DNA from: Candidatus Vecturithrix granuli
Lineage (GTDB): Bacteria; Moduliflexota; Moduliflexia; Moduliflexales; Moduliflexaceae
DNA: 32,374 nucleotides
Reading direction: 5' to 3'
Assembly (NCBI GenBank): GCA_000739535.1
Contig: DF820465.1
Coordinates: 513,391-545,764 of the forward strand
Numbering within the stretch: the stretch's first letter is position 1; each line of letters opens with the position of its first letter. The notes beneath the pieces are model-generated. The model was not told the DNA's origin. It saw only the letters and a program-made list of their open reading frames with translations, and ran no database searches. Of this stretch, positions 212-32,229 are shown one piece after another. Both the position numbers and the translations under genes were made by a program.

Positions 212-3200
212 TTATCGGGGGCCAAGTTCCCAATCCAGTTCCCATATTTGCAAGGTTTTATCACGACTGCCTGATACCAGAAAATGTCCATCAAGTGTGA
301 TCGCCACGGTTTCGACACTTTCCTGATGCCTTTCAAATACCCGAAGGCAGACGCCTGTTTCGAGTTTCCAGAGCCGGGCCGTCTTATCCCAACTGCCTGA
401 GACTGCAAAGCGACCATCAGAGGTAATCGCGACTGAAGAAATATAATCTGTATGGCCTTGTAAAATACTGACGCAATGTCCGGCGGAGAGATTCCACAAA
501 CGCAGTGTTTTGTCGCGGCTGCCTGAAAGCGCAAAACGTCCGTTTGGCGTGATTGCTACAGCGGTGACGTAATCTTGATGCCCTTTCAAAACACGCAGGC
601 ATTTGCCTGTGGCAATATCCCACACCCGTAAGGTTGTATCCCAACTGCCTGAAACAGCGAAACGCCCATCCGGACTGATGGCAACCGCATCAACTTCGCC
701 CTCATGCTCCCGAAAGATGCGCAGATTTTTATCGGTTGTGAGTTCAGCAGATTTATATGCATCTTCTAAAGGAATGCGTAATCCTTGAAAAATCTCAAGA
801 TATTTCTCGGTCGCAAGAGACCATAATCGCAGGGTTTTATCGTTACTGCCCGAAAGCGCAAAGCGCCCCTCTGGAGTGACGGCGACACAGCGCACGTAAT
901 CGTCGTGCCCTTTGAATGTTTTTAAACTTTCTCCTGTAGTCAACGCCCATAAACGCAAGGTATTGTCCCAACTTCCCGATACGGCAAAATGTCGATCGGA
1001 GGTCATTGCCACACAAACCACATTGGCTGTATGTCCTTTCAAGATCCGCAGACATTTACCTGTCATCAGCGGCCACAAACGCAGTGTATCATCGCGGCTG
1101 CCTGAGAGTACAAAGCGTCCGTCCATACTGATAGCCACAGAAGTGATCACACCCTCATGTCCCTTTATGATTCGGACTAATCGCCCTTCACGCAGGTTTT
1201 TCCTCTGGAGAATTTTACTCAGGCGAGCATTGAAGTTGAGGATAGCTGGATCCCGTTCATAACCGGGGATCGATCGAGCTAATGATAAAAAGGTATAGGC
1301 TGTCGCTGGTTTTCTCGTTTTGATCGCAGACTCTGCATGCTCCAGGTATTTACGAAATCGTTTTTTAAACGTCTCTAATTCCCAGTGTTCTCGCTGTCGG
1401 CAGACTTGAAAGGCGGCTTTGGGGCGTTGTAATTTGGCGTCTAACCCCCATAATCGTAACACTTTATCGGTGCTTCCGGAAAGCGCAAATTGTCCGTCTG
1501 GAGTCATCGCTACCGCTGTCACGGTCTCTTCATGTTCCTCAAAGGTTCGCAGGCATTTACCGGTTTGTAAATCCCATAATCTCAAGGTTTTATCGGTGCT
1601 TCCGGAAATTCCGAACCGGCCATCCGGAGTCATCGCCACAGCCGTCACCGGTCCATCGTGTCCTTCAAAAATTCGCAGGCTTTTCCCTGTCTGCAAATCC
1701 CATAAACGCAGCGTCATATCAAGACTGCCTGAGATAGCCAACCGACCATCCGGTGTGACAGCAACCGCCGTGACCCGTTTCGCATGTCCCTCAAGAATCT
1801 GTAAACACTTTCCGCTTTGCAAATCCCAGACTCGAAAACTGGCATCTGACCATCCTGACACTGCCACGCGTTCATCAAAAGTCATCGCAATGATATTCAT
1901 CTGATTGCGATGTTTTTTGAAGATCTGAAAACCTCGTTCTCCTCTGAAAATCTCAAGACTGCGTTCAGTTAAAAGATCCCATAAGCAAAGGGTTTCCTCA
2001 TGACTTCCCGCTAAGGCAAAACGGCCATTTTGGGTCACTGAGACAGCGGTTTGTGTATCTCCGCGCCCTTTAATTGTCACAAAGCATTCGCCGGGGGGAA
2101 GTGGCCAGAACCGTATGGGACTCTGCTCAGGTTCTTCTTCTGTCAACGGGGTGCTCATTTTTTCCCGCACAAATCTTCGAAGATAGTTGCCTTTTCCGAG
2201 ATCTTTCAGCCGCATCTCAGAATGATTTCCGACCAGAGCAAAACGCCCGTCCGGGGTCATAGCAATCGCTTCCAGCCAATACGTATATTCTTTAAAAACT
2301 TTCAAACATTTTCCTGTGTGCAGACTCCATAACCGTAAGGTTTTATCACGACCAACAGACACTACGAGGCGTCCATCCGGACTCACCGTTACAGCAGTAA
2401 TCGCACTTTTATGGCCTTCCAAAATATGCCGGCACTTTCCGGAAGAAAGATCCCAAACTCGTAAAGTCTTATCTAAACTCCCGGAAACCACAGTTTTTTC
2501 ATCGGGGGTTAACGCGAGACTCGTCACGCCCTTACTATGCCCTGTAAAGACATGCAGGCACTTTCCGGACAGCAGTTTCCATAAGCGTAAGGTTGTATCA
2601 CTGCTTGCCGAAATGACAGCATCTCCAACAGGAGCTGTCACGACAGCCGTGATGCCATCTTTATGCCCTCGGTATCTTCGCTGATATTTTCCGAACTTAA
2701 CGTCTAAGAGCCAGAGAAACTTTCCGCCTCCGATTAGAATTCCCTGGTCATCCGGGGTGATGCTGACAGCATTGATATCTTTTTCTACCCCCTGGAACAT
2801 TTGTACACATTTGCCTGTTGCCAATTCCCAAATTCGCACCGTGTTATCGGCGCTTCCCGACACAGCATAGCGGCCATCGGATGTTAAGGCGAGGGCTCGG
2901 ATCTCTTTGGTATGTCCACGCAGTATTCTAAGACAGTCACCAGTTTCAACATCCCAGACAAACACATTTGGATCATAACTCCCTCCTGAAACCGCAAACC
3001 TTGCATCTGAGGTCATAGCAAGCGAGGTATTACTACCGGCATAGCCCTTGAATGTCCAGAGCTTCAACTTTTCAGACCACTCGAATGTCCAAAAAAACCT
3101 ACCTGTCTCAAGATCCCATAATTTCAATTCCTCCCCTTTTCCCAGGAGAGCGAATTGTCCGTCTGAGGTCAACATCATCATTTCAGGTCGTTCGGGATAG

Positions 3201-5011
3201 CCGACATAGGTGTGTAAACAATGGGGCCAGGGGAAAATGATCTGTTCTTGTTGATAGCGAGTTTTTTGTTGGGCCAATTTCTGTCTTTGCCATGTCAGCC
3301 CATCGCCCGGCACGAGTTTGAGCGCATTGGCATAAGCGTTTTCTGCTTCTGTAAATCGCTCCTGGGCCATTAAAGCGTCGCCTAATGCGCGCCAGGCCGC
3401 ATTATCGCGCGCTAATTCATCAATTTGGAGGGCCTCAATCAATTCTTTTTCAGCCTCATCCGCCGATGCTCGCTCAAGATGGACAAAGCCAAGATACAAA
3501 CCGGCTCGCCAGCTTGCTTGTTTTGCCTCTTTCAAACGACGGACAACTTCATCATCAGCAATGCTCTCATCCCGCCATTCCAACAGTGCTTTGTTATAGA
3601 CCGATTCCGGGTGATGCGCATCAAATTGCAACGCTCTTTCCAGCGTCGCCAGCGCTTCTTGTTTTTTGCCCAAATCCAAAAGAGAAACTGCATGATTATT
3701 CAAGGTGCTCGACCGCAGTTCAGCGGCCTGCGGAATTTCACGCGCATAAGGTTTTCCGAGAATTTTCTGATAACACCAGGTGAGTTTCTCACGCAATTCG
3801 GACATTGAAGAGGGACGCTGGTCGGGGGCTTTGGCAAGGCATGTCATGATGAGTTCGGCGAGCAAGGATGGAATGTGTTGATTGAACTGTCGCGGATCAG
3901 TGACCGGGGTAAATAAATGCCGGCCAATAAGCGCATAGGGAGGGATCTTTTGTCGGCCGTCATCATAAGGCCGACGTCCGCAGCATAATTGAAACGCGAT
4001 GCCGCCTAAGGCATAAATGTCTGCCCGTGCATCAGTATGCTTGGCGGTTGTCCATTGTTCCGGCGCAGCATATTCCGGAGTTCCCAACCCTGCCTCGGTT
4101 GTTGTGACCGTGGCCTGTTTCCCTTCAGAAGACATGATCACCCTGTTATCCTCAGGCATGAAATTTCCGGCGCGTTTCGCAATCCCAAAATCAGTCACGC
4201 GCAGTTCTCCGCTTGGAGTCAGCAACAGATTGCCCGGTTTCACATCGCGATGAGCTTTTATTCCGTGTTCATGGGCATATCCCAACCCATCACAGGCCTG
4301 GATCACGAAATCGAGAATTTTTTCCCATTCCCCAGGTCTCACTTTGCCCGTCAACATCCAATCTTTCAGGCTACCGCCCTCAAGATAATCCATAAAAACC
4401 CGCGGAATTCCTCCTAATTCCCGGACATACCAGCATTGCACGATATTCGGGTGGAGACCTAAATCAACCCAGGTCTGAGCTTCGTGCAGGAAACGGGCTT
4501 TCAAGCCATCATCAGCGACAAAGCGCCGCAGCGGCATTTTTACTGCCAGATAAAGATCCCATTCACGATGATAGACCTGATACACCACTCCCATGCCCCC
4601 CTGTCCCAACACCTTCAAGATTTCATAGCGGCCGTCAATAATATCGCCAATTTCCCATTCAGCTTTTTCAACAGAGATGCGGTCATGTTTTGGCTTATCA
4701 GGAAATGGATGCTCAAAATGGGCAGGCCTTTCTCTGACTTGAATTTTATATGCTTGACTCAGGGTGGAATAATTTTCCTCGAACTGCTCGAATTCTTCCG
4801 TAACAGGTTGTTGAGCAGGCCATGAGAATTCTTGCTCGTGGGCGTATTCCTTCGCTTGATCTGCTGAAGGGGCGACATCAAGCTGACTCTTGGCTTTGTT
4901 CCTGAACATCTGAGTGAACATGAAAAAATTCTCATCGAATTCTTCAGGTTCATCCGGAGAAGACGAGGATTTGGTTTTCTTAGAAAAATTTTTTTGTTCT
5001 TGCTCCGACAT
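212..5011 (-). CDS. Ser/Thr protein kinase with TPRs and about 20 WD40 repeats
   Basis: Predicted cytoplasmic Hanks-type Ser/Thr kinase, 1599 residues. The kinase domain (about 120-410) has the glycine loop GQGGMG, the Lys in LAVKM, the catalytic HRDVKPGN, DFG, and the APE-type GTPEYAAPEQW, so it should be active. A Thr-rich activation loop (VTTTEAG) offers autophosphorylation sites. TPR-like helices follow (about 430-585). The rest is WD40: I count 13 blades, then a helical linker (about 1200-1275, WELETFKKRF...), then 7 more blades, most ending in SGSxDKTLRLWDL. This would suit three propellers. No membrane segment is visible. The ATG at 5011 is chosen because GAGGG lies 7 bases upstream; an in-frame TTG at 5080 would add 23 residues but has a poorer ribosome site. 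The substrate is unknown; the propellers probably act as a protein-docking platform. Confidence 0.92.
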   Translation of the reverse strand: MSEQEQKNFSKKTKSSSSPDEPEEFDENFFMFTQMFRNKAKSQLDVAPSADQAKEYAHEQEFSWPAQQPVTEEFEQFEENYSTLSQAYKIQVRERPAHFEHPFPDKPKHDRISVEKAEWEIGDIIDGRYEILKVLGQGGMGVVYQVYHREWDLYLAVKMPLRRFVADDGLKARFLHEAQTWVDLGLHPNIVQCWYVRELGGIPRVFMDYLEGGSLKDWMLTGKVRPGEWEKILDFVIQACDGLGYAHEHGIKAHRDVKPGNLLLTPSGELRVTDFGIAKRAGNFMPEDNRVIMSSEGKQATVTTTEAGLGTPEYAAPEQWTTAKHTDARADIYALGGIAFQLCCGRRPYDDGRQKIPPYALIGRHLFTPVTDPRQFNQHIPSLLAELIMTCLAKAPDQRPSSMSELREKLTWCYQKILGKPYAREIPQAAELRSSTLNNHAVSLLDLGKKQEALATLERALQFDAHHPESVYNKALLEWRDESIADDEVVRRLKEAKQASWRAGLYLGFVHLERASADEAEKELIEALQIDELARDNAAWRALGDALMAQERFTEAENAYANALKLVPGDGLTWQRQKLAQQKTRYQQEQIIFPWPHCLHTYVGYPERPEMMMLTSDGQFALLGKGEELKLWDLETGRFFWTFEWSEKLKLWTFKGYAGSNTSLAMTSDARFAVSGGSYDPNVFVWDVETGDCLRILRGHTKEIRALALTSDGRYAVSGSADNTVRIWELATGKCVQMFQGVEKDINAVSITPDDQGILIGGGKFLWLLDVKFGKYQRRYRGHKDGITAVVTAPVGDAVISASSDTTLRLWKLLSGKCLHVFTGHSKGVTSLALTPDEKTVVSGSLDKTLRVWDLSSGKCRHILEGHKSAITAVTVSPDGRLVVSVGRDKTLRLWSLHTGKCLKVFKEYTYWLEAIAMTPDGRFALVGNHSEMRLKDLGKGNYLRRFVREKMSTPLTEEEPEQSPIRFWPLPPGECFVTIKGRGDTQTAVSVTQNGRFALAGSHEETLCLWDLLTERSLEIFRGERGFQIFKKHRNQMNIIAMTFDERVAVSGWSDASFRVWDLQSGKCLQILEGHAKRVTAVAVTPDGRLAISGSLDMTLRLWDLQTGKSLRIFEGHDGPVTAVAMTPDGRFGISGSTDKTLRLWDLQTGKCLRTFEEHEETVTAVAMTPDGQFALSGSTDKVLRLWGLDAKLQRPKAAFQVCRQREHWELETFKKRFRKYLEHAESAIKTRKPATAYTFLSLARSIPGYERDPAILNFNARLSKILQRKNLREGRLVRIIKGHEGVITSVAISMDGRFVLSGSRDDTLRLWPLMTGKCLRILKGHTANVVCVAMTSDRHFAVSGSWDNTLRLWALTTGESLKTFKGHDDYVRCVAVTPEGRFALSGSNDKTLRLWSLATEKYLEIFQGLRIPLEDAYKSAELTTDKNLRIFREHEGEVDAVAISPDGRFAVSGSWDTTLRVWDIATGKCLRVLKGHQDYVTAVAITPNGRFALSGSRDKTLRLWNLSAGHCVSILQGHTDYISSVAITSDGRFAVSGSWDKTARLWKLETGVCLRVFERHQESVETVAITLDGHFLVSGSRDKTLQIWELDWELGPR

Positions 5012-5152
5012 GATTTTTCCCTCAAGGATCCGCCATTCAAAAAAAGACAAGTTTCTGTCGTCCTGATTTATCTCGATCAAGGTTATCTCTTTGAAATATC
5101 AGAGATAAATTACAGAGAGAAGTTTGAATGCGATCTTCTCTTTTCAGGTATT

Positions 5153-14836: not shown

Positions 14837-15056
14837 AGAGATCCCGCGAAACTTACGAGTCTCTCTCATCGCAATCCGAAAATTCACGGATTCAACGTAT
14901 TCAATCTCGAGAACTACTCACCCACAGCTAAGGAAAATGAATGGCTATTTTCTTGACAAATCGCCCCTCCTGGTTCACACTTAAAGAAGATATTCATCCT
15001 ATTTTGAAGCATCTGTTGACCCAAAGGTCAACCGGATATTTCGCGAGGTTTTGACT

Positions 15057-17090
15057 ATGACGCTGAAAAAAAAGATATTTTTTCCTGTGCTTGCGGCGAT
15101 TGTGCTTTTAGGGAGCCTTGGATATATGGTGATGCAAAGAGTGCTCTCCAAACTTGAAACCGACCTGTCAAAACAAGTGGTGTCCGAAAAACAAGAAGAA
15201 CTTGCTGCGATGCTCACCCTGACGGCTGAACAGGCGAAACAAAAGGCGGCTCTTTTTACGCAACTCCCGGAGATTTTACAAGCTTTTGAGATTGCTCATA
15301 GCGGCAATATCCATGATGAAGCCGATCCCAGGGGGCAAGAAGCCCGAGAATTTTTGCGTCAGACTCTCAAGGCAACTCTGGATGGATATACAACTGTCAT
15401 GAATGGCGAGAAACTGCAATTACACTTTCACCTGCCGAATGGACATAGTTTGGCGAGAATGTGGCGTGAGAAACAGACTGTGCGCGACGGAGTGTGGAAG
15501 GATATTTCCGATGATATTTCAAGTTTCCGCCAAACCGTGTTAGATGTGAATCGTTCAGGCCAGCCTGTCACCGGCATTGAACCTGGGAGCGGTGGGTTTG
15601 TGGTGCGTGGCCTGGCGCCAATCAAAACTCCCCAGGGCAGACAATTAGGCTCAGTAGAAGTGCTTGAGGATTTTAATCCGCTGCTGGACAGTTTGGTAGA
15701 TCGCGACGCTGAAGCAGGACAACAAGGTCTCTTTTTGTTTATGAATGCGGAGTTATTGTCAGTGACGACAGCGTTGCGAGATCATGAAAAATATCCGCTC
15801 ATTGCAGACCAATATGTGTTGATCTATGGCACCGGCGATCGCTATGGTGAACAATTGATCGATCTTGAACTTTTGAATCGTGGGAAACTCGCATTAACGC
15901 TTTCTCATCAGGGGTCTGTCCTGCTTGGCGGATTTCCTGTCCAGGATTACAAAAAACAGCAGATTGGCGTTATCGTTTATACGTTTGATGTGTCAAAACA
16001 GAAGGCTCTGGTTCAACGCATTATGCTCACGATGCTTGGCACGTTGGGTGCGATTTTATGTTTATTAGGAGGGATTATGCTGGTTATGACCAGACGTTCC
16101 ATTTTGACGCCGATTCGCAAGATCGTTGATTTTGCCGAGCAGGTCAAGGAAGGAAATTATAACACGACGCTTGATTTTACCAATGCTGATGAAATCGGCG
16201 AAATGGGTACCGCATTAAATCACATGGTGCTTGCCCAACGCCAAATGATCGATCAAATTCATCGCTCCACGATTCAGGTGACATCCTCATCCACAGAATT
16301 ATCTGCAACTGCCAAAGAACAGGAAGTGACCATGCAGACCCAGGTGGAGTCAACTAACAAGGTGTTAAAGTCGGTCGAAGAAATCTCTGATGTGGTCAAA
16401 GAGCTGGTTCACACCATGGAGCATGTGGTGACGACTGCCCAGGAAACCGCCCATATTGCCGGGATAGGACAGGAGAATTTACAACGCATGAAAACGGTGA
16501 TGCAACAGATGGAGCATGCATCGAAATCAATTTCAGGGCGTCTAGAAATTATCAATGAGAAGGCTGAAAATATTACGACTGTAGTGACAACGATTGCAAA
16601 AGTTGCGGATCAAACCAATCTGTTGTCGCTCAATGCCGCGATTGAGGCTGAAAAGGCCGGAGAGTACGGACAGGGATTCACCGTGGTGGCTCGTGAAATT
16701 CGTCGCCTGGCTGATCAAACCGCCATGGCGACACTGGATATCGATCAAATGGTCAGGGAAATGCAATCAGCAGTCGCTTCAGGGGTCATGGAAATGGATA
16801 AATTTATTGCCCAGGTACACCACCATACTGAAGATGTTAGCAAAACAAGCACCCAATTATCCCAGATTATCGAGCAAGTCCAGACATTGACTCCGAGTTT
16901 TGACCTTGTGAATGAATCCATGAAACATCAGGCGGAAAATGCAGAAAATATTCGGGAGGCCATGCTCCACCTGAGCGAAGAAATGCAGGAAATGAAAGAA
17001 GCCTTGCACGAAACCTATTCAGCGATCAGCCAACTGAATGAAGCGGCACGCGATTTACAAGATGAGGTAGCACATTTTACGATTACCTGA
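15057..17090 (+). CDS. Methyl-accepting chemotaxis protein with dCache_3-like sensor
   Basis: Transmembrane chemoreceptor, 677 residues. TM1 (about 7-27) and TM2 (about 321-346) enclose a periplasmic domain that resembles double-Cache type 3 sensors: LQLHFHLPNGHSLARMWR, then DISSFRQTVLDVNRSGQPV, GIEPGSGGFVVRGLAPI. HAMP follows, then the coiled-coil signalling region with the tip QTNLLSLNAAIEAEKAGE (about 518-535) that binds CheA and CheW. The stretch SGVMEMDKF is also typical of Wsp-type receptors. There is no C-terminal CheR-docking pentapeptide. The ATG at 15057 has GAGG 8 bases upstream; an in-frame TTG at 15051 is too close to that site. It is the first of three receptors in a row. A TTGACA at 14953 in the preceding gap has no convincing -10. 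Confidence 0.93.
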   Translation: MTLKKKIFFPVLAAIVLLGSLGYMVMQRVLSKLETDLSKQVVSEKQEELAAMLTLTAEQAKQKAALFTQLPEILQAFEIAHSGNIHDEADPRGQEAREFLRQTLKATLDGYTTVMNGEKLQLHFHLPNGHSLARMWREKQTVRDGVWKDISDDISSFRQTVLDVNRSGQPVTGIEPGSGGFVVRGLAPIKTPQGRQLGSVEVLEDFNPLLDSLVDRDAEAGQQGLFLFMNAELLSVTTALRDHEKYPLIADQYVLIYGTGDRYGEQLIDLELLNRGKLALTLSHQGSVLLGGFPVQDYKKQQIGVIVYTFDVSKQKALVQRIMLTMLGTLGAILCLLGGIMLVMTRRSILTPIRKIVDFAEQVKEGNYNTTLDFTNADEIGEMGTALNHMVLAQRQMIDQIHRSTIQVTSSSTELSATAKEQEVTMQTQVESTNKVLKSVEEISDVVKELVHTMEHVVTTAQETAHIAGIGQENLQRMKTVMQQMEHASKSISGRLEIINEKAENITTVVTTIAKVADQTNLLSLNAAIEAEKAGEYGQGFTVVAREIRRLADQTAMATLDIDQMVREMQSAVASGVMEMDKFIAQVHHHTEDVSKTSTQLSQIIEQVQTLTPSFDLVNESMKHQAENAENIREAMLHLSEEMQEMKEALHETYSAISQLNEAARDLQDEVAHFTIT

Positions 17091-17128: not shown

Positions 17129-19171
17129 ATGCGAACAATTTCCATTCGAACAAAATTTTTCACAGTGTGTATTATTCTGGTGTTGGTGACGACGCTTGGG
17201 ATTTCTGCTACATATTACGTGTTAACAACGCGGCGGATGCACCAGGAATCTCGCCAGCGTATCAAAATCGCGTTTGATATTCTGCTTGAAGATATTCACA
17301 ATCGCCGCGACAATTATGCCAGACGACTCGACGAATTTGTTGCGACGGATACATCGCTGCGATTGACCACCTCTACGTATATGGATGATCCCGGTCAGGT
17401 TGCGCAGGTGTCATTTCTGACAAGCTATCTGAAGGAAACCGCTGATATCCTGCAACGATTCGGACGAGGGATCTCTGCTAATCGTTTGATGCTCTATGGC
17501 GCGGATCAGCGATTACTTCTTTTTTATCAGCGCGACGACCAACAAGAAAACCTGGGAGCGTATATGGTTTCTGCAACGGGCAGCAATACGTTTCTGCCGT
17601 TGAATGATTTTGCGAAACTCGGCCCGCTTTTGTTTGGAGAACAGGCGATTCCCGATGTTCCCCTCCCTGAGAAAATCTCTGCATCTTATCTTGCTGACGT
17701 GCCTGATACACTCATGTCGCTGCTGTTCAGCGAAGGTCAGGAATTTGGATTCAGGCTGGCTGCACCGCTCTTTCATCGCGAAAAAAAAACCGGGGTACTG
17801 GTGTGTGAGGTCTTGTATGGTCAAACCTTGCTTGAACGCTATGCGTCATTGAGTAAAACCGATATTCAATTTATGAATCCGGCGACCTTGCCTGCGGTTT
17901 CGGGGGTACCCTTAGAAGAGATTGATGCCGTGATCTCCTGTGAGACCCTCGCACGCGAGGAGGCAGAAATCGTTTTGGGTTCCGTGAGCATCAATGGTCA
18001 GGATTATTATCAAGGACGTTGTGCGTTCAAAGGGCAGCAAAAGCCAATAGGACTCATCACGATCAATCTTTCGCAGCAATTCGAACAACAGGAGATCAAA
18101 AACATCATGTTCGCGGTGCTGTTTGTCTCAGCAGCGGCGTTTGTGGTCTCTTTGGGTCTTTCTTTGCTGCTGAGTCGCAAAGTGATCTTGTCAATTCAGA
18201 ATATAGTCAAAGTGATCGGAGCAGTTGCCGCAGGGGACCTCAGAGAAAAGGCCGCCATTCTGACCCGTGATGAACTCGGGATGTTGGCAGTAAAAGTCAA
18301 TCTTATGCTTGAGCATTTACGCACGATGGTTGATGAAGTCCAACGGGCTGAAATGCAGGTCAGCTCATCATCCTCAGAATTAACTGCGACCGCTAGACAG
18401 CAAGATGTGATGATGACCAACCAGATGACTTCAACAACGTCTGCCGTCGAATCGATCCAAGAAATCAGCAAGGTAACGGCTGATCTGGTTCATACCATGC
18501 AGCAAGTCGCGTCTATGTCGAAAGAAACAGCGGTTATTGCCGGGCAGGGTCAGGGAGATTTAGGGCGGATGGAAGAGGTCATGCAGCAAATGGAACAGGC
18601 CTCGGAAGCGATTTCCAATCGTTTGCGCATTATTGATCAAAAAGCGGATAAGATTACTTCCATGGTGACCACGATCACGAAAGTCGCCGAACAGACCAAC
18701 CTGCTGTCATTCAATGCAGCGATTGAAGCTGAAAAAGCCGGGGAATTCGGGCGAGGGTTTACCATTGTAGCTCGTGAAATTCGACGTTTGGCCGATCAGT
18801 CCGCTGTCGCCACGATAGATATTGAATATATGGTGCACGAAATGCAATCTGCGATTTCAACTGGCGTGATGGAGATGGACAAGTTTATTGCGACTGTTCG
18901 ACACAGCGTCACCGATGTCAATCGCATCAGTGCGCAGTTAACACGTATTATTGACCAGGTGCAAGTGCTTCTGACGAATTTTGAAGACGCCAATACCGCC
19001 ATGGGGGTTCAAGCGAACAATGCTCAGAAGATCACCGAAATTATTACGAATTTAAGTGAAGACATGGTCCATACCAAAGTGTCGCTGCACGAAACCTATA
19101 CTGCGATTGAACAACTCGATGAAGCTGCACGAGGACTCCATGAGCAGGTTGCTCGATTTCAAGTTGGATAG
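17129..19171 (+). CDS. Methyl-accepting chemotaxis protein with unrecognised periplasmic sensor
   Basis: Receptor of 680 residues: TM1 (about 8-31), a periplasmic region of roughly 290 residues, TM2 (about 323-350), HAMP, and a signalling domain whose tip reads QTNLLSFNAAIEAEKAGE (about 522-539). The Leu-to-Phe change (SFNAA rather than SLNAA) in the tip sets it apart from the two flanking receptors. The sensor has features of a large single ligand-binding module (FRLAAPLFHREKKTGVLVCEV, DYYQGRCAFKGQQKPIGLIT, Cache-like) but I cannot assign a family. The cytoplasmic half is closely similar to both neighbours, pointing to gene duplication followed by exchange or divergence of the sensor. It starts 38 bp after the first receptor, so the two are surely co-transcribed. 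Confidence 0.92.
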   Translation: MRTISIRTKFFTVCIILVLVTTLGISATYYVLTTRRMHQESRQRIKIAFDILLEDIHNRRDNYARRLDEFVATDTSLRLTTSTYMDDPGQVAQVSFLTSYLKETADILQRFGRGISANRLMLYGADQRLLLFYQRDDQQENLGAYMVSATGSNTFLPLNDFAKLGPLLFGEQAIPDVPLPEKISASYLADVPDTLMSLLFSEGQEFGFRLAAPLFHREKKTGVLVCEVLYGQTLLERYASLSKTDIQFMNPATLPAVSGVPLEEIDAVISCETLAREEAEIVLGSVSINGQDYYQGRCAFKGQQKPIGLITINLSQQFEQQEIKNIMFAVLFVSAAAFVVSLGLSLLLSRKVILSIQNIVKVIGAVAAGDLREKAAILTRDELGMLAVKVNLMLEHLRTMVDEVQRAEMQVSSSSSELTATARQQDVMMTNQMTSTTSAVESIQEISKVTADLVHTMQQVASMSKETAVIAGQGQGDLGRMEEVMQQMEQASEAISNRLRIIDQKADKITSMVTTITKVAEQTNLLSFNAAIEAEKAGEFGRGFTIVAREIRRLADQSAVATIDIEYMVHEMQSAISTGVMEMDKFIATVRHSVTDVNRISAQLTRIIDQVQVLLTNFEDANTAMGVQANNAQKITEIITNLSEDMVHTKVSLHETYTAIEQLDEAARGLHEQVARFQVG

Positions 19172-19222
19172 TACTCATTGAAGAGAGATGTCCGGTTTTT
19201 CAATGTGCGAAGGAGAAAGAAT

Positions 19223-21202
19223 ATGCTGAAAAATTTTTCGTTTTCCAGGAAATTAATTTTTTTATTCAGTTTTTTCAGTATTGTTGCGGCTGTGGGCATA
19301 GGAAGCGGAGGATATCTGCTCATCAGAGCATTTCTGCTACACACGATTGACAAGGAATTGGTGCAGTTTACCGATTCAACTTCGCATCTGGTCGAAACCA
19401 CGGTCACGGTTTCTATTCGGAATTACTTGAAAGCGATTGCAGAACGGAATGAGGAACTTCTCCGCTATTATTATGCTCAGGTGCAAAATGGCGTGCTGAC
19501 AGAAGCAGAGGCCAGGGAACGCCTTTCTCAGATCTTGCTTCAGCAAAAAATTGGGAAAACGGGGTATACCGCAATCATGAGTTCTGCCGGAATCACAGAA
19601 ATCCATCCGGAGCAACAACTCATCAATGTGGATCTCTCTTCCTTCGAGTTCGCACAAAGGGCAACCCGCCAAAAAAGTGGCTACATTGAATATCTGTGGA
19701 AAAAGCCGGGAGAAGAGCAGGAACGGGAGAAATCGGCTTATTTAGCTTATTTTGAACCCTGGGATGATCTGGTGTTTGTCTCTTCATATAAAAGCGAATT
19801 TCGGTATTTAGTGGATGTCAATGATTTTCGAGCGCAGGTGCTATCTGTCCGGCTTGGAGAAACAGGCTATATCTATATCATGGATTCTCAGGGTAATCTG
19901 GTCATCCATCCCTCGCTGGAAGGTCAAAATATCGCTGATTCCAGGGATGCTCAGGGAAGATTTTTTATTCGTGAAATCTGCGACACTAAAACCGGACAGA
20001 TGACATATTTCTGGAGAAATCCGGATGAAGTTCAGGTGCGGGAAAAAAAAATATATTATACCTATTTTGAGTTGATGGATTGGATTATTGTGGGAGGAGT
20101 GTATCTCGATGAGTTATACGCGCCTCTGCATAATTTGATCAAGACAATAGCGTTAATCACGGTTGGCATGTTCTGTTTGGTCATCCCGTGTTCAATTTTG
20201 TTGGGAAAAACACTTGTCAAACCGATCACTCATTTAGTCTCTGCGGCGGAATCCATTGGGAAAGGGGAACTCGACGTGCAGATTCATCAGGGACATCATG
20301 ATGAAATCGGCCATCTTGCCAAAACATTTCATTTGATGTTGGAGGCGCTGAAATCGGTATTAAGTCAAGTACGGCGGGCAGGAATCCAGGTCACGTCTTC
20401 GACGACGGAGTTGGCTGCGACTGCCAGAGAACAAGAGGCGATTATGGCCACACAAGTTGATTCTGCGAAGAAGATGGTGAAATCGGTTGAGGAAATTTCA
20501 AGCGTATCTGAGCGCCTGGTGGAAACCACATCCGAAGTGTCAGGGATGCTCCAAGAGGCTGTAAGTACTGCCAGCAGCGGGCAGGAGGATTTGAGTCAGA
20601 TGCAAGGGGCTATGCATCAGATGGAAGTGGCCTCGCAATCTATCTCCGGGCGATTACAAACTATTAATGAAAAAGCAGAAAATATCACCCAGGTTGTGAC
20701 GACCATTACACAAGTGGCTGAACAAACCAATTTGTTATCACTCAATGCGGCGATTGAAGCGGAGAAAGCGGGGGAATTTGGACGCGGCTTTACAGTGGTT
20801 GCCCGGGAAATTCGGCGATTGGCCGATCAAACGGCGGTTGCGACGCTTGATATTGAGCAGATGGTCAAGGAAATGCAATCGGCGGTCTCGGCCGGGGTCA
20901 TGGAGATGGATAAATTTATGGCTGATGTCCGTCATAACGCCGAAGATGTTGGCAGAATCAGCGCGCAATTGACGCATATCATTGACCAGGTACAGGCTCT
21001 GTCGCCGCACTTTGATGATGTGCATCAGGCCATGGGACGCCAATCTGAAAGCGCCCAAAAAATTAATATGGAAATTATTCAATTAAATGAAGAAATGCAG
21101 CAAACGCGAGATTCAGTTCATGAAACCTACTCGGTGATTGAGCAACTGAATGAAGCAGCCAGAAATTTGCAAGAAGAGGTGTCACGCTTTAAATTTCACT
21201 GA
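19223..21202 (+). CDS. Methyl-accepting chemotaxis protein with tandem Cache_2-like modules
   Basis: Receptor of 659 residues. After TM1 (about 9-33) come two similar Cache modules: GKTGYTAIMSSAGITEIHP (from about 110) and GETGYIYIMDSQGNLVIHP (from about 211). Each is followed by a GxxxYxWxxPxExxxREK stretch and a YFExxDxxxxxxxY ending. This repeat is typical of Cache_2 sensors that often bind small organic acids, but the ligand here is unknown. TM2 is at about 306-328, then HAMP and the signalling tip QTNLLSLNAAIEAEKAGE (about 501-518), with SAGVMEMDKF as in WspA. The ATG at 19223 is fixed by AGGAG 7 bases upstream; the open frame reaches back to a TTG at 19178. It is the receptor nearest to the CheW gene, the position of wspA in Pseudomonas. 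Confidence 0.93.
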   Translation: MLKNFSFSRKLIFLFSFFSIVAAVGIGSGGYLLIRAFLLHTIDKELVQFTDSTSHLVETTVTVSIRNYLKAIAERNEELLRYYYAQVQNGVLTEAEARERLSQILLQQKIGKTGYTAIMSSAGITEIHPEQQLINVDLSSFEFAQRATRQKSGYIEYLWKKPGEEQEREKSAYLAYFEPWDDLVFVSSYKSEFRYLVDVNDFRAQVLSVRLGETGYIYIMDSQGNLVIHPSLEGQNIADSRDAQGRFFIREICDTKTGQMTYFWRNPDEVQVREKKIYYTYFELMDWIIVGGVYLDELYAPLHNLIKTIALITVGMFCLVIPCSILLGKTLVKPITHLVSAAESIGKGELDVQIHQGHHDEIGHLAKTFHLMLEALKSVLSQVRRAGIQVTSSTTELAATAREQEAIMATQVDSAKKMVKSVEEISSVSERLVETTSEVSGMLQEAVSTASSGQEDLSQMQGAMHQMEVASQSISGRLQTINEKAENITQVVTTITQVAEQTNLLSLNAAIEAEKAGEFGRGFTVVAREIRRLADQTAVATLDIEQMVKEMQSAVSAGVMEMDKFMADVRHNAEDVGRISAQLTHIIDQVQALSPHFDDVHQAMGRQSESAQKINMEIIQLNEEMQQTRDSVHETYSVIEQLNEAARNLQEEVSRFKFH

Positions 21203-21233
21203 GCCGATATATGATGGAAAAGGAAAAAATACC

Positions 21234-21710
21234 ATGTTAGTCTTGCTGTTTTATCTTGGCGACGTAATGTACACTATTGAGTGTCAATATGTGAGAGAAA
21301 TCGCTCCCATGGTGACGTTGAAAGAATTGCCTCGCGCCCCGGAGTTTTTTGCCGGATTTTTTAATTATCGAGGGATAATTGTACCAGTGATTGATTTGCG
21401 CCGACTTATTCACGGCGTTCCCTGTCAAATGCGATTGAGCACCCGAATTATTCTGGTCGATTATGTGCAGTACGATTCCAAACCATCAGTGTATGGCCTG
21501 ATTGCCGAGCGAGTGACCGAGGCCACGAAAAAGTCGGACCGGAACTTTATTAGGCCTGATGTCAGGATGCAGGAAGCGCCATACCTGGGAAGTCTGATTA
21601 TGGAAGAAGATCGGATGATTCATCATATTGATGTGAAGACTTTGACCCAAAGTCTTTCATTTTTGCATACGTTTGAAACAAGGATTGCTCATGCCTCAAA
21701 TAACGATTGA
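21234..21710 (+). CDS. wspB: CheW-like coupling protein (WspB position)
   Basis: CheW-domain protein of 158 residues that links the receptors to the CheA kinase at the array base plate. It begins LVLLFYLGDVMYTIECQYVREI and contains AGFFNYRGIIVPVIDLRRLI, the classic CheW core with Gly-Ile-Ile-Val-Pro-Val-Ile-Asp-Leu. The open frame extends further upstream into the end of the receptor gene, but AGGA 9 bases before ATG 21234 and the CheW fold boundary favour this start. It overlaps the CheR gene by 20 bp, so the two are translationally linked. The symbol is given by gene order relative to the Pseudomonas wsp operon. Confidence 0.85.
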   Translation: MLVLLFYLGDVMYTIECQYVREIAPMVTLKELPRAPEFFAGFFNYRGIIVPVIDLRRLIHGVPCQMRLSTRIILVDYVQYDSKPSVYGLIAERVTEATKKSDRNFIRPDVRMQEAPYLGSLIMEEDRMIHHIDVKTLTQSLSFLHTFETRIAHASNND

Positions 21711-22992: not shown

Positions 22993-23058
22993 TTTTTCGG
23001 GAAAAGGTAAAAACTGGGTTTTTAAATCTGTGACTCTTTTTTGAAATACTCTATACCT

Positions 23059-23745
23059 ATGGAAGAGACAACACACATTCACAACTGTTGGAAGCGGATC
23101 GGCGTGTGGGGACAGGTAGAACGCTTAACCTGTCCTCTCCTGGAACAAGTGATCCATTGTCGCAATTGTCAGGTGTTTACCCAGGCCGGCCGGCAGCTTT
23201 TGGAACGCAATCTGCCGCAGGAATACCGTAATGACTGGACCGGTGTGCTGGCGCAGAAGAAGGAAGAAGAGCTGATCGGCACGCTCTCAGTCGTTATTTT
23301 TCGCATCGAACGCGAGTGGTTAGCGATTTCTACGCACTTGTTCGAAGAGATCATGAGCGCTGACCAGATCCAGAGCCTGTTGCACCGTATTCCTCATCGG
23401 AAAAATCCGGTGTTAATGGGGATGATTAATGTACACGGCGAAATTTGGCTCTGTGTCTCACTCAGGGAACTCCTGGGAATAGAACGGTTGACAGACCAGG
23501 AAGAGACCCGAAACATCTCAAAACGGATGATGGTGATTAATAGCGACGATGGACGCTGGGTATTTCCGGTGGATGAGATTCATGGCATTTCCCGTGTTCA
23601 CGCGTCAACATTTCAAAATGTTCCTGTCACCGTTGTGAAGGCGAAGTCAACATTTACGAAAGGCATCTTCGAGTGGCAGGAGAAACGTGTGGCCTTTCTG
23701 GATGAAGACCTGCTATTGTACAGTTTGACAAGGAGCGTCAAATGA
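23059..23745 (+). CDS. wspD: CheW-like protein with N-terminal four-Cys motif (WspD)
   Basis: Second coupling protein, 228 residues. The N-terminal 60 residues carry Cys10, Cys25, Cys34 and Cys37 in the setting CWKRIGVWGQ...CPLLEQVIHCRNCQVF. This pattern occurs in WspD-type proteins and looks like a metal or Fe-S site, though no function is known to me. The CheW domain follows (about 75-220): LSVVIFRIEREWLAIS, GMINVHGEIWLCVSLRELL, and RWVFPVDEIHGI. The start is not well fixed: no good ribosome site precedes ATG 23059 or the in-frame TTG at 23041. Its stop codon overlaps the CheA start (ATGA), so the two are translationally coupled. Confidence 0.85.
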   Translation: MEETTHIHNCWKRIGVWGQVERLTCPLLEQVIHCRNCQVFTQAGRQLLERNLPQEYRNDWTGVLAQKKEEELIGTLSVVIFRIEREWLAISTHLFEEIMSADQIQSLLHRIPHRKNPVLMGMINVHGEIWLCVSLRELLGIERLTDQEETRNISKRMMVINSDDGRWVFPVDEIHGISRVHASTFQNVPVTVVKAKSTFTKGIFEWQEKRVAFLDEDLLLYSLTRSVK

Positions 23746-26659: not shown

Positions 26660-27679
26660 ATGCGGATTGCCATTGCGAACCATCGGATCGTCGAGCAATT
26701 ACGACGACTTGTGTTGAGCGCGCCGGACTGTGAAGTGGCCTGGATCGCTCGAAATGGCAGCGAGGCGGTAGAAAAATGTGCGCTTGATCCTCCCGATTTA
26801 GTGTTAATGGAACCGAATTTACCGATGTTAAATGGGGTTGAAGCCACGCGTCGCATTATGCGCGATTTTCCCTGTCCTATCTTGATTGTGACCGATACGG
26901 TTGACGGAAATGCGGCCAAAGTGTTCGAAGCCATGGGCTATGGGGCGTTAGATGCGGTCAGTGCTCCGATGATTGGAGACGACGTGGTGGTGGAAAATAG
27001 CCAAACGCTATTACTCAAAAAGATCAAAATGATTCAGCGGCTTCGCAAAACGCCTTCAGATATTATCCAGCCTGAATCCGGACACGCGAAGCATGGCAGA
27101 ATCACGGTTTCCCCTATGGTGGCGATCGGAGCTTCGGCGGGCGGCCCGAAAACGCTTGCCAAACTCCTTGCACAATTCCCGGCCCGGCTTTCTGCCATCA
27201 TTATCATCATTCAGCATGTTGATCAAGAGTTTTCGGCTGGGTTGGTCGAGTGGTTAGCTGTGCAAACCCCATTAAAGGTCAGATTGGCGCATGAAGGCGA
27301 ACAGCCTAAGAGCGGGCATGTGTATGTAGCTGGCACCAATCATCATCTTATTCTAACTCCTGGCCTGAGATTTGCCTATACTCCGGAACCTCATCAGATC
27401 CTGTATCGCCCGTCGGTGGATGTGTTTTTTGAAAGCGCGGCCAGATATTGGCCCAGGAAGGGGTGTGCAATTCTTCTCACCGGAATGGGACGTGATGGCG
27501 CAAAAGGGCTGGCATCGTTACACAACGTCGGTTGGTATACGATCGCTCAGGATGAAGCTACCAGTATCGTCTATGGTATGCCAAAAGCCGCAAAAGAACT
27601 TGGGGCTGCAACCAATATTCTTCCAATCGATGAGATTGGACCGAGGGTTCTGAAAATATTACATCAGGGCCTAAAGTGA
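26660..27679 (+). CDS. wspF: CheB-type receptor methylesterase with degenerate receiver (WspF)
   Basis: Methylesterase/deamidase that removes methyl groups from receptor glutamates, 339 residues. The catalytic triad is intact: Ser159 in GASAGGP, His186 in IIQHVD, Asp279 in GMGRDGAKG. The N-terminal receiver keeps the fold and GVEATRRIM, GNAAKVFEAMGYGALDAV, as in WspF, but the acid pocket reads IANHR where IVND or VDD is expected. The phospho-acceptor position is Glu51 (VLMEPNLP) instead of Asp. The receiver should therefore not be phosphorylated; Glu could mimic a permanently active state (inference). GGAGAGG precedes the start. The stop codon lies 6 bp before a long palindrome that separates it from the diguanylate cyclase gene. 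Confidence 0.94.
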   Translation: MRIAIANHRIVEQLRRLVLSAPDCEVAWIARNGSEAVEKCALDPPDLVLMEPNLPMLNGVEATRRIMRDFPCPILIVTDTVDGNAAKVFEAMGYGALDAVSAPMIGDDVVVENSQTLLLKKIKMIQRLRKTPSDIIQPESGHAKHGRITVSPMVAIGASAGGPKTLAKLLAQFPARLSAIIIIIQHVDQEFSAGLVEWLAVQTPLKVRLAHEGEQPKSGHVYVAGTNHHLILTPGLRFAYTPEPHQILYRPSVDVFFESAARYWPRKGCAILLTGMGRDGAKGLASLHNVGWYTIAQDEATSIVYGMPKAAKELGAATNILPIDEIGPRVLKILHQGLK

Positions 27680-29270: not shown

Positions 29271-30770
29271 ATGTCAAATTCCGTGACGTTAACACACCAT
29301 CGGATTACCGTGTTGTTGGTTGATGATCAACCGATGATCGGCGAGGCGGTTCGCCGCATGTTATCGTCTGAGCAAGACATTGATTTCCATTACTGCCCTG
29401 ATCCGATTCAGGCCATTAAAATGGCAAATCAGGTTGCTCCAACGGTGATCTTGCAAGATCTGGTCATGCCCGAGATTGATGGACTGACATTGGTGCGCTA
29501 TTTTCGCGCCAATCAGTCCACACGAGAAGTCCCACTGATCGTGCTCTCAAGCAAAGAAGAACCTGTGACAAAGGCTGAAGCCTTTGCGCTTGGGGCCAAT
29601 GATTATCTGGTGAAACTCCCGGACAAGTTGGAAGTGCTGGCCCGGATCAGATATCACTCAAAAGGCTATATCAACCTTTTAGAGCGCAATGAAGCCTATA
29701 ATGCTCTGTTAGAAAGCCAGCAGCAGCTTGAACTGCGTAACCGGTTTATCCAGCAAACCTTTGGCCGCTATTTGTCTGATGAAATTGTCAAAACCATTCT
29801 TGAAACGCCGGAAGGTTTAAAAATTGGTGGGGAGAAACGGGTTGTGACGATTATGATGACAGATTTGCGAGGGTTTACTTCCACCTGCGAACGATTGCCG
29901 GCAGAAAATGTGGTGAATATGCTCAATGTGTATCTCGAAGCGATGACAGAAATTATTCTCAAATATCATGGGACAATTGTCGAATTCATCGGAGATGCCA
30001 TCTTAGCGATTTTCGGAGCGCCGCTGATGCGCGAAAACGACGCAGAACGATCTGTGGCATGTGCATTGGAAATGCAAGCGGCCATGACAACCGTCAATCA
30101 GCAGAATTGCGACGCCGGGTATCCGGAAATTGCCATGGGGATTGGCTTGAATACAGGTGATGTCATTGTAGGAAATATTGGTTCGCGCAAACGCACCAAA
30201 TATGGAATTGTGGGCAGAAATGTGAATCTGGCCTCGCGGATTGAATCTTATACGGTGGGCGGGCAGATTCTGATTTCACAAGACACTTTGCTAGCCTGCC
30301 GTCCTATTCTCAAGGTTCACGCCCAGATGGAAGTGATGCCTAAAGGCGTCAAAGAACCGCTGACTATTTATCATATTGTCGGAATCGGAGGGGAATTCAC
30401 AATCTATCTGCCTGAAGAACGCACGGAATTTTTTGAATTAGCTCCACCGCTTCCGATTCGTTTTTCCGTGCTTGAAGGTAAGCACGATAATCAAGCCTTT
30501 TATAGGGGGGATGTGTTGAAATTAGCGCAACATGAGGCTGAAATTCAGGCTGAGCGCGGTTTCCGGGAATTAACAAATCTTAGAATGTCCCTGATTGATC
30601 GGAAGGGGCAGGAAGTAAGTTCGGAATTATACGCGAAAGTGATCGAAAATGTCTCAGATTCGCCTCCGGTGTTTCGCGTGAACTTTACAGCTCTTCCCCC
30701 TGAAGCAACACAATTTTTTCGAAATCTTCTGGAAGGAACACGCATATCGCAAGCAGGCTCAAGTTCGTAG
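29271..30770 (+). CDS. Response regulator class III nucleotide cyclase with WspR-type receiver
   Basis: Predicted phosphorylation-controlled nucleotide cyclase, 499 residues. The receiver (about 10-130; LLVDDQPMIGEAVRRML, Asp63 in ILQDLVMP, DYLVKLPDK, RYHSKGYI) is a paralogue of the preceding gene's receiver. A coiled-coil linker (NALLESQQQLELRNRF) leads to the class III cyclase domain (about 185-385) with metal Asp198 (MTDLRGFT) and Asp242 (FIGDAILAIFGAP). The purine-selecting positions read Glu238 (VEFIGD) and Gly312 (KYGIVG), closer to guanylyl than adenylyl cyclases. A C-terminal region of about 110 residues (RFSVLEGKHDN... to FRVNFTALPPEATQFFRNLL) may be a PilZ-like barrel without the usual c-di-GMP residues. 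The ATG at 29271 is used (GAGAG upstream); the open frame reaches back to a TTG inside the preceding gene. Confidence 0.92.
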   Translation: MSNSVTLTHHRITVLLVDDQPMIGEAVRRMLSSEQDIDFHYCPDPIQAIKMANQVAPTVILQDLVMPEIDGLTLVRYFRANQSTREVPLIVLSSKEEPVTKAEAFALGANDYLVKLPDKLEVLARIRYHSKGYINLLERNEAYNALLESQQQLELRNRFIQQTFGRYLSDEIVKTILETPEGLKIGGEKRVVTIMMTDLRGFTSTCERLPAENVVNMLNVYLEAMTEIILKYHGTIVEFIGDAILAIFGAPLMRENDAERSVACALEMQAAMTTVNQQNCDAGYPEIAMGIGLNTGDVIVGNIGSRKRTKYGIVGRNVNLASRIESYTVGGQILISQDTLLACRPILKVHAQMEVMPKGVKEPLTIYHIVGIGGEFTIYLPEERTEFFELAPPLPIRFSVLEGKHDNQAFYRGDVLKLAQHEAEIQAERGFRELTNLRMSLIDRKGQEVSSELYAKVIENVSDSPPVFRVNFTALPPEATQFFRNLLEGTRISQAGSSS

Positions 30771-30803
30771 TTCTCGATTCCAGGCTCAGGTTCGTAGTTC
30801 TCG
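30754..30803 (+). repeat. Short direct repeat overlapping the 3' end of the cyclase gene
   Basis: CAGGCTCAAGTTCGTAGTTC starts at 30754 and recurs with one change at 30781 (27-bp spacing). The first copy supplies the last codons (Gln-Ala-Gly-Ser-Ser-Ser) and the TAG stop of the cyclase gene. The second runs into a small palindrome CTCGCT-tg-AGCGAG. It looks like a repeat unit that inserted into or expanded at the gene end. Confidence 0.55.
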
Positions 30804-30877
30804 CTTGAGCGAGTTCTTCCGTTTGAAGGCGAGACGACAAACGTGTCAAAATTCAGTTAAGTTGACGCCGCAGATCA

Positions 30878-30926
30878 GGAGTGTTAAAGCCTGGCTTTGA
30901 CAGCTAAAGACGAGTTTTGGCACTCC
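30878..30926. repeat. Family A palindromic repeat (GGAGTG...CACTCC), third location
   Basis: The ends GGAGTG and CACTCC match the units at 7463-7515 and 7959-8008. The first inner hairpin is AAAGCC-t-GGCTTT; the second (AAAGACGAGTTTT) is partly decayed. It lies in the 187-bp gap between the cyclase gene and the cyclic-nucleotide-binding gene. Confidence 0.6.
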
Positions 30927-30957
30927 GATAGATGATTGCGGCATGTACGGATTGACT

Positions 30958-31371
30958 ATGGATGCACAAACACTGAAAACTATATTACGCAAGAATGACT
31001 TATTCAATACGCTGCACGATGATGAGCTTGATGTGCTCATCGAAAACGGCAGCATCCGCGAATTTTTGCGAGGCAAGATCATTTACATGAAGGGTGAAAA
31101 ATCGAATGATACCTTTTGTTTGATCCTCTCCGGAAGTGTGAATATTGTCGCAGCAGGCGGAGATATTCTAAAAGAAATGGGGAGCGGCGAGGTGATCGGC
31201 GAGATCGCACTCTCTGACCCGCATCACATCCGCACCGTAAATGTGATTGCTAAAGAACCGACTTTAGTGCTGGAATGGAATGTAAATCACATCAAAGGCA
31301 AGATTCCGGTACTCTGGAAAAAGCTGCTCAAATTAGCCTGGAAAAATATCAGGAATTATTATGAAGAGTAA
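30958..31371 (+). CDS. Stand-alone cyclic-nucleotide-binding domain protein
   Basis: Small soluble protein of 137 residues consisting of one CRP/PKA-type cyclic-nucleotide-binding domain and a short C-terminal helix, with no helix-turn-helix or other output. Landmarks are FNTLHDDELDVLIENG, GKIIYMKGEKSNDTFCLILSGSVNI, and the phosphate-binding cassette IGEIALSDPHHIRTVNV with Glu82 (ribose) and Arg92 (phosphate) at the same spacing as in E. coli CRP. Thr93 directly after the Arg is the residue associated with cGMP preference in protein kinase G. It may sense the product of the upstream cyclase and act through protein contacts (inference). ATG 30958 has a weak GGA upstream; ATG 30943 in frame is the alternative. 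The next gene follows 15 bp on. Confidence 0.85.
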   Translation: MDAQTLKTILRKNDLFNTLHDDELDVLIENGSIREFLRGKIIYMKGEKSNDTFCLILSGSVNIVAAGGDILKEMGSGEVIGEIALSDPHHIRTVNVIAKEPTLVLEWNVNHIKGKIPVLWKKLLKLAWKNIRNYYEE

Positions 31372-31386
31372 TGGAGGAGCAAATTG

Positions 31387-32229
31387 ATGATCGAGGATAT
31401 TTTGTTATACTATTCAGATCAGCGTAATATCCACAAACTACGAACATATCTACCTCACAATTTTTGTGAACAGGCGGCTGATGCGGTGCTGAAACACGTT
31501 GGAAAAGTGCTGATCACGACCGGCTTTTGGGTGGCCGGAACCTGCGAGACCGATGGTCCGATCGGGGCGATCGTGTTAGCTGACGTACTCACGGAACTGA
31601 GGGCTGACCCTGTTTTTGTAACTGATTGCTACTGCGCCGAGGTCTTACGCCGCTGCTGCCAGTATCGGGTCATAGATTTTCCGATCACCTCGCACGAGGA
31701 AAGTCTGGCTATCGCCCGATCCATTCTGGCTGAAGAACACCCATCATTATTGATCAGTATTGAACGCTGCGGAATGAGCCAGGACGGTCACTATTACAAC
31801 ATGCGTCGTGTTGACGTGAGTGAATACACGGCAAAAGTTGATTATTTGTTTCTGGAATTTCCGGCCAGTATTGGGATTGGCGACGGCGGCAATGAAATCG
31901 GCATGGGTAACCTGACGGACGCCATTGCGGCAGAAGCTCTGCCGATAGCTCCCTGCGTGACCTGCGTAGAATATCCGGTGATTGCCACGGTTTCGAACTG
32001 GGCGGCTTATGGCATGATCGCGTATCTTTCTCAAAAGCAGCAGCGCGATTACATGCGCTATGTAACAGTGCGGGAAATTCTGACGCAATTAGTTGCAGAG
32101 GGAGTTGTGGATGGGGTGCTCAAAGAGCCAGTGATGAGCGTAGATGGATTTGCAATCGACGCAATTGAAGCAGTGGTTGCGTCGCTGCGCAAAGAGGTTG
32201 AACCGTTTTTGACCGGAATTCCTGGGTGA
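31387..32229 (+). CDS. D-glutamate cyclase-like protein (DUF4392 family)
   Basis: Protein of 280 residues that resembles the C-terminal domain of D-glutamate cyclase, the enzyme that converts D-glutamate to 5-oxo-D-proline. Recognisable family motifs are TTGFWVAGTCETDGPIGAIV near the N-terminus, SIERCGMSQDGHYYNMRRVDVS in the middle (first part SIERCGMSQDG), and GIGDGGNEIGMGNL. It is soluble with no signal peptide. The start at ATG 31387 follows GGAGG by 9 bases; an in-frame TTG lies one codon earlier. It sits 15 bp after the cyclic-nucleotide-binding gene and is probably co-transcribed with it, though a functional link to the signalling cluster is unproven. The assignment rests on motif memory. 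Confidence 0.75.
   Translation: MIEDILLYYSDQRNIHKLRTYLPHNFCEQAADAVLKHVGKVLITTGFWVAGTCETDGPIGAIVLADVLTELRADPVFVTDCYCAEVLRRCCQYRVIDFPITSHEESLAIARSILAEEHPSLLISIERCGMSQDGHYYNMRRVDVSEYTAKVDYLFLEFPASIGIGDGGNEIGMGNLTDAIAAEALPIAPCVTCVEYPVIATVSNWAAYGMIAYLSQKQQRDYMRYVTVREILTQLVAEGVVDGVLKEPVMSVDGFAIDAIEAVVASLRKEVEPFLTGIPG

Follow-up and report, generated by a model that had tools for sequence, protein, structure and literature searches.

The 32,374-nucleotide stretch of Candidatus Vecturithrix granuli DNA analyzed here, hereafter called the window, carries an operon of the Wsp type (alternative cellular function) that probably has two response-regulator outputs, the second of which is a class III cyclase, very probably a guanylyl cyclase of the Cya2 type. 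Between 15051 and 31371 the genes follow one another in the order MCP, MCP, MCP, CheW, CheR-TPR, CheW, CheA-REC, CheB, REC-GGDEF, REC-cyclase, and cyclic-nucleotide-binding (CNB) protein. The established order of the Wsp genes is wspABCDEFR, and the full set (MCP, two CheW, CheR-TPR, CheA-REC, CheB, and REC-GGDEF) is present here in that order, joined by additional receptors and two further genes. Wsp-like clusters normally drive the messenger c-di-GMP alone. The features are as follows:

15051-17090, 17129-19171, and 19178-21202, + strand: three chemoreceptors, all three with PF00015 and HAMP, the first and third with Cache
21150-21710, + strand: CheW (WspB-like), PF01584
21673-22992, + strand: CheR with TPR repeats (WspC-like), PF01739 and TPR
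23041-23745, + strand: CheW (WspD-like), PF01584
23742-26657, + strand: CheA with two Hpt domains and a C-terminal REC (WspE-like), from the domain search
26660-27679, + strand: CheB (WspF-like), PF01339 and PF00072
27769-29247, + strand: WspR-like response regulator, REC-(GAF-like)-GGDEF, with GGEEF and an RxxD I-site; the GAF-like middle was assigned by eye
29271-30770, + strand: REC - class III cyclase - PilZ-like protein of 499 aa, proposed guanylyl cyclase response regulator (PF00072, PF00211, Cya2 2w01, PilZ fold)
29310-29648, + strand: its WspR-type receiver, residues 14-126, phospho-acceptor Asp63 (PF00072; closest solved receivers WspR 3bre and 3i5a)
29841-30377, + strand: its class III cyclase catalytic domain, residues 191-369 (PF00211)
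29982-29984, + strand: Glu238, at the position of the adenine-selecting Lys of adenylyl cyclases and of Glu488 in Cya2
30198-30206, + strand: Lys310-Tyr311-Gly312, corresponding to KYG of Cya2; adenylyl cyclases have [DE]YT there
30426-30752, + strand: C-terminal PilZ-fold domain, residues 386-494, without RxxxR and [DN]xSxxG (model, Foldseek, VIA-align, PF07238)
30943-31371, + strand: single-domain CNB protein with beta5 Leu76-Lys77 and cassette residues Glu87 and Arg97-Thr98 (PF00027, alignment to PKG, family alignment)

With its GGEEF and I-site sequences, the WspR-like protein should be an active diguanylate cyclase subject to feedback inhibition. The host, Candidatus V. granuli UASB270, belongs to the candidate phylum KSB3/Modulibacteria (PMC4312070); it is a filamentous wastewater bacterium. 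KSB3 genomes lack flagellar genes and encode more than 60 chemoreceptors each, and the filaments of this phylum move by gliding in gradients of glucose or maltose. The genome analyzed comprises 8,384,694 bases in 21 contigs. As the contig bearing the operon is 930,752 bases long, a stray contig was rejected as its source.

The REC-cyclase matches PF00211 (E 1e-29) and PF00072 (E 2e-19). Besides the PF00211 match, it has the two metal aspartates (Asp198 and Asp242) and the transition-state Asn319 and Arg323 of class III cyclases. These four residues are invariant in an alignment of 10 orthologous sequences, as are Asp18/19, Asp63, Ser93, and Lys115 of the receiver. A preliminary description of this DNA, made from the letters alone, had located Glu238 in EFIGD and Gly312 in KYGIVG. 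Counting from the ATG at 29271, both residues are where it placed them, and in an alignment with Cya2 they fall on the E and KYG positions of structure 2w01. That description linked the cyclase neither to the Wsp-type operon nor to a third, PilZ-like domain. It had also taken Glu and Gly to be a guanine-selecting pair. This reading gains support from Cya2 (2w01, 219 bits), a proven guanylyl cyclase and, among natural proteins of solved structure, the one closest to the catalytic domain. P. aeruginosa CyaB (125 bits) and CyaC (89 bits), both adenylyl cyclases, score below Cya2. The best-scoring structure, 6fht, is a phytochrome-Cya2 fusion with an E-to-K change. Further support comes from Cya2 and bPAC, whose substrate is switched by changes at these positions, and from the retention of the set across orthologs. 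Glu-Gly has been reported as the Cya2 pair (PMC4886424); wild-type Cya2 is GTP-specific, and E488K turns it into an ATP-specific adenylyl cyclase (PMC5995499). Conversely, bPAC is an adenylyl cyclase that K197E/D265K/T267G makes into a guanylyl cyclase, with a preference of about 7:1 for GTP (PMC4569695); here, the correspondence was drawn by motif, from K-DYT to E-KYG. With rare exceptions, the sampled cyclase domains combine Glu with KYG, and Lys with [DENQ]-[YF]-T, and E/KYG is present in 21 of the 24 full-length orthologs; the signature is therefore not accidental. The REC-cyclase is the only cyclase found in the V. granuli genome with both Glu and Gly. Another V. granuli cyclase (G000 C21:832324, L012), which sits on a long branch, combines Glu, at the first base-recognising position, with HLT in place of KYG.

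We also built a tree from which the four signature columns were excluded. The family, Cya2, the CHASE2 cyclase L039, and the HAMP cyclase L040 fall into one group; the grouping with Cya2 has an SH-aLRT value of 94%, below the starred level. Judging from these residues and relationships, the product of the REC-cyclase is very probably cGMP.

Residues 386-494 of the window cyclase have no Pfam match. As the full-length model was poor (mean pLDDT 44.6), its active site was left unused, and this C-terminal domain was modelled alone (AlphaFold) from a deeper alignment of 24 sequences, with a pLDDT of 89. The modelled domain appears as a six-stranded barrel with a C-terminal helix, as in PilZ. Its top Foldseek matches are all PilZ (probability 1.00), VIA-align gives a Z of 12.4 to 3kyf with an rmsd of 4.2 over 112 residues, and PF07238 finds weak matches in 4 of the 24 members, the best with an E of 0.0013. 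Because the c-di-GMP motifs RxxxR and [DN]xSxxG are absent from all 24 sequences, binding of this messenger is improbable; the domain probably does not bind c-di-GMP, and control of the cyclase by c-di-GMP through it is unlikely. The same PilZ-like end is found in the CHASE2 cyclase L039. PilZ folds devoid of the two motifs end Cya2-type cyclases at 30426-30752 of the window, 1498-1866 of L039, and 1444-1833 of L040. Cya2 has a structurally uncharacterised C-terminal extension of 118 residues that strongly stimulates its activity (PMC5995499). This extension is probably the same PilZ barrel; such a reading, if true, would account for the part of Cya2 that is needed for activity. The open-licence literature yielded no paper linking CHASE2 guanylate cyclases to a PilZ domain.

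Full-length orthologs of the REC-cyclase, about 55-69% identical to it, come mostly from Desulfobacterota. They occur in 13 of the 192 sampled genomes of the class of Desulfonema, and none was found in the three nearest relatives of V. granuli examined. Their neighborhoods were named by BLAST against the window proteins, which covers genes resembling those of the window. By this comparison, 21 of the 24 ortholog loci lie in Wsp-type clusters, mostly with the cyclase directly 3' of CheB, and no WspR was found beside the cyclase in any of the 21; some of the contigs end shortly past it. In the Wsp-type clusters of Desulfobacterota, the cyclase takes the place of WspR, with a WspR further on being possible where contigs end. 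The cyclase receiver, whose closest relative among solved structures is WspR, is 69% identical to that of the neighboring WspR-like protein and mostly 74-84% identical to most of the Desulfobacterota cyclase receivers. Since it is nearer to most of its orthologs than to its neighbor, the tandem is no recent local copy, and a recent local duplication of the two receivers was rejected.

The signature has been lost in three orthologs, which have A/KYD (L084, 4466-5932) or T/KYD (L170, 9817-11328, and L171, 12511-14031). These replacements would fit a relaxed or changed specificity. The cyclases of L170 and L171 adjoin genes resembling branched-chain amino acid transporters.

By analogy with Wsp, the receptors would act via CheW on the WspE-like CheA, which would phosphorylate two receivers, that of the WspR-like diguanylate cyclase and that of the REC-cyclase. 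The latter would work as a homodimer, with Glu238 recognising the edge of the guanine and Gly312 making space for the base, and phosphorylation of its receiver would raise cGMP. The most likely role of the PilZ-fold domain is to assist catalysis or the coupling of the dimer, as with the extension of Cya2, and the downstream CNB protein would be a plausible candidate receiver of cGMP. In this scheme, the genes and their order, the residues, homology, conservation, and folds come from the sequence and model comparisons; the product, the phosphotransfer, the activation, and the part played by the CNB protein are inferred from them.

Three other readings bear on this scheme. The residues might be misleading, and the cyclase might make cAMP or produce the two nucleotides indiscriminately. 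Mixed activity can indeed arise when residues of adenylyl cyclases are exchanged: the triple-mutant bPAC with E-KYG still yields some cAMP (PMC4569695), and in Ma1120 the replacement of Lys and Asp raised guanylyl activity (PMC4215837). However, the nearness of the whole domain to Cya2, the retention of E, K, and G together, and the position in the tree, which is independent of the signature columns, all oppose this reading and make it quite improbable. It is likewise unlikely that the cyclase is a separate regulator that merely stands beside the cluster and is not driven by this CheA. Three of the 24 orthologs (L075, L170, and L171) do lie outside a chemosensory cluster, but the location of the others in Wsp-type clusters argues against it, as does the WspR type of the receiver, common to PP2C and GGDEF outputs. 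The third reading accepts cGMP as the product of the cyclase and makes the adjacent CNB protein its dedicated, cGMP-selective receptor. This has more in its favor than the other two but still seems to us somewhat doubtful, for the following reasons.

The CNB protein is a single domain of 142 residues (PF00027, E 5e-13) with a recognizable cassette, GEIA...RT, including Glu87 and Arg97. The Arg92-Thr93 of the preliminary description is present, as residues 97-98 from the ATG at 30943 or 92-93 from the second Met. On the strength of this Thr, the protein had been read as a cGMP binder, and the cyclase and its neighbor as two independent clues that agree; only the cyclase half of this cGMP reading is well supported, the CNB half not being diagnostic. 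A gap of 172 bases separates the two genes, which share a strand, and it contains no terminator-like site in that orientation. In PfPKG, guanine is recognised by Leu472-Arg473 on beta5 and by Thr493, which links its N2 to the phosphate (PMC4412288). When the CNB protein is aligned to PKG, Thr98 and Leu76-Lys77 fall on these guanine-contact sites, which mildly favors cGMP. The protein thus resembles the CNB domains of PKG in its cassette Arg-Thr and in a Leu-basic pair at beta5, and differs from them in being bacterial, single-domain, and without a kinase. PKG CNB domains are also its best solved relatives by E-value, but this ranking is helped by the presence of several CNB domains per PKG chain. 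GlxR and M. tuberculosis CRP are cAMP receptors. GlxR chains have the same Arg-Thr (GPRTSS), as does M. tuberculosis CRP, and E. coli CRP has Arg-Ser; the Arg-Thr pair is widespread and tells little about the ligand. In the family alignment, Arg-Thr-Val is invariant and the beta5 residue varies (A, K, N, R, K), the window protein having Lys77 in place of the PKG-like Arg. BLAST against the window proteins found the CNB gene near none of the 24 ortholog cyclases. Four Desulfobacterota homologs all lie away from cyclases and adjoin an FAD disulfide reductase (domains checked in one), and a 41% identical V. granuli paralog is at an unrelated place, away from any cyclase. Because the CNB gene adjoins the cyclase in the V. 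granuli genome only, the agreement of the two clues was overstated; with Arg-Thr found in cAMP receptors and in cyclase-distant homologs, the CNB clue neither proves cGMP nor lends it strong independent support. The fullest version of our proposal, in which one array feeds both c-di-GMP through the WspR-like protein and cGMP through the Cya2-type enzyme, the CNB protein reads cGMP, and the cGMP branch is conserved among Wsp-type systems of Desulfobacterota as an alternative output, is unlikely to hold in all its parts. The pairing of a single-domain CNB protein with an FAD pyridine nucleotide-disulfide reductase was seen in L146 (8750-11011, with a rhodanese domain), L147, L148, and L149.

Compared with known systems, the window cyclase resembles Synechocystis Cya2 (2w01) in its catalytic domain, E/KYG, FGRY cyclase-transducer region, and a C-terminal extension of similar length. 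Unlike Cya2, a membrane CHASE2 protein, it has a soluble WspR-type receiver and is encoded in a chemosensory operon. The operon shares with Pseudomonas Wsp (WspABCDEFR) the gene set and order, CheR-TPR, the C-terminal REC of CheA, the REC-GGDEF output, and the receiver type, but has three receptors and the additional REC-guanylyl cyclase output. In Rhodospirillum centenum, the Che3 chemosensory pathway and cGMP both control development (cyst system). There, cGMP acts through the CRP-type CgrA rather than a single-domain CNB protein, and we know of no cyclase response regulator within a Wsp-type cluster in this species.

Cyclase outputs are already known as an architecture class, since a 2012 survey of CheR-TPR clusters lists "mononucleotidyl cyclase" among the response-regulator outputs (PMC3447774). 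The window protein shares with these REC-mononucleotidyl cyclases the general architecture and the association with alternative-function pathways; in the passages of the survey covered here, the nucleotide is unassigned, and neither a PilZ-like end nor a tandem with WspR is described. Titles and abstracts of the open-licence literature yielded no guanylate cyclase output in Wsp or chemotaxis systems. To our knowledge, the literature searched describes neither the guanylyl assignment nor the WspR tandem, the PilZ-like end, or the conservation in Desulfobacterota. Bacteria have very few known cGMP pathways, and the initiating signal is known for only a minority of these. As a chemoreceptor array, a WspR-type switch, and the enzyme are here united in one operon, with conservation for instance in Desulfonema magnum, the formation of cGMP downstream of a chemosensory kinase can be directly tested.

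In many other bacteria, a receiver of the same type is joined to PP2C, and in one of the cases sampled it is joined to GGDEF. Since one receiver type thus occurs on cyclase, PP2C, and GGDEF proteins, output domains have been swapped behind it. The proteins joining it to a PP2C/SpoIIE-like phosphatase, a third and common output, were found at L087-L113 in Planctomycetes, Syntrophus, Desulfovibrio, and others. A REC-PP2C protein is also encoded 3' of the cyclase in L076, L077, L080, L081, and L086.

Elsewhere in the window, a 26-base repeat in two tandem copies, 92% identical, lies across the cyclase stop codon (30754-30806). A D-glutamate cyclase-like protein (PF14336) is encoded at 31384-32229; its gene starts 13 bases past the CNB gene, with which it is probably co-transcribed. 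On the minus strand, positions 212-5080 encode a very long WD40-repeat protein of 1622 aa.
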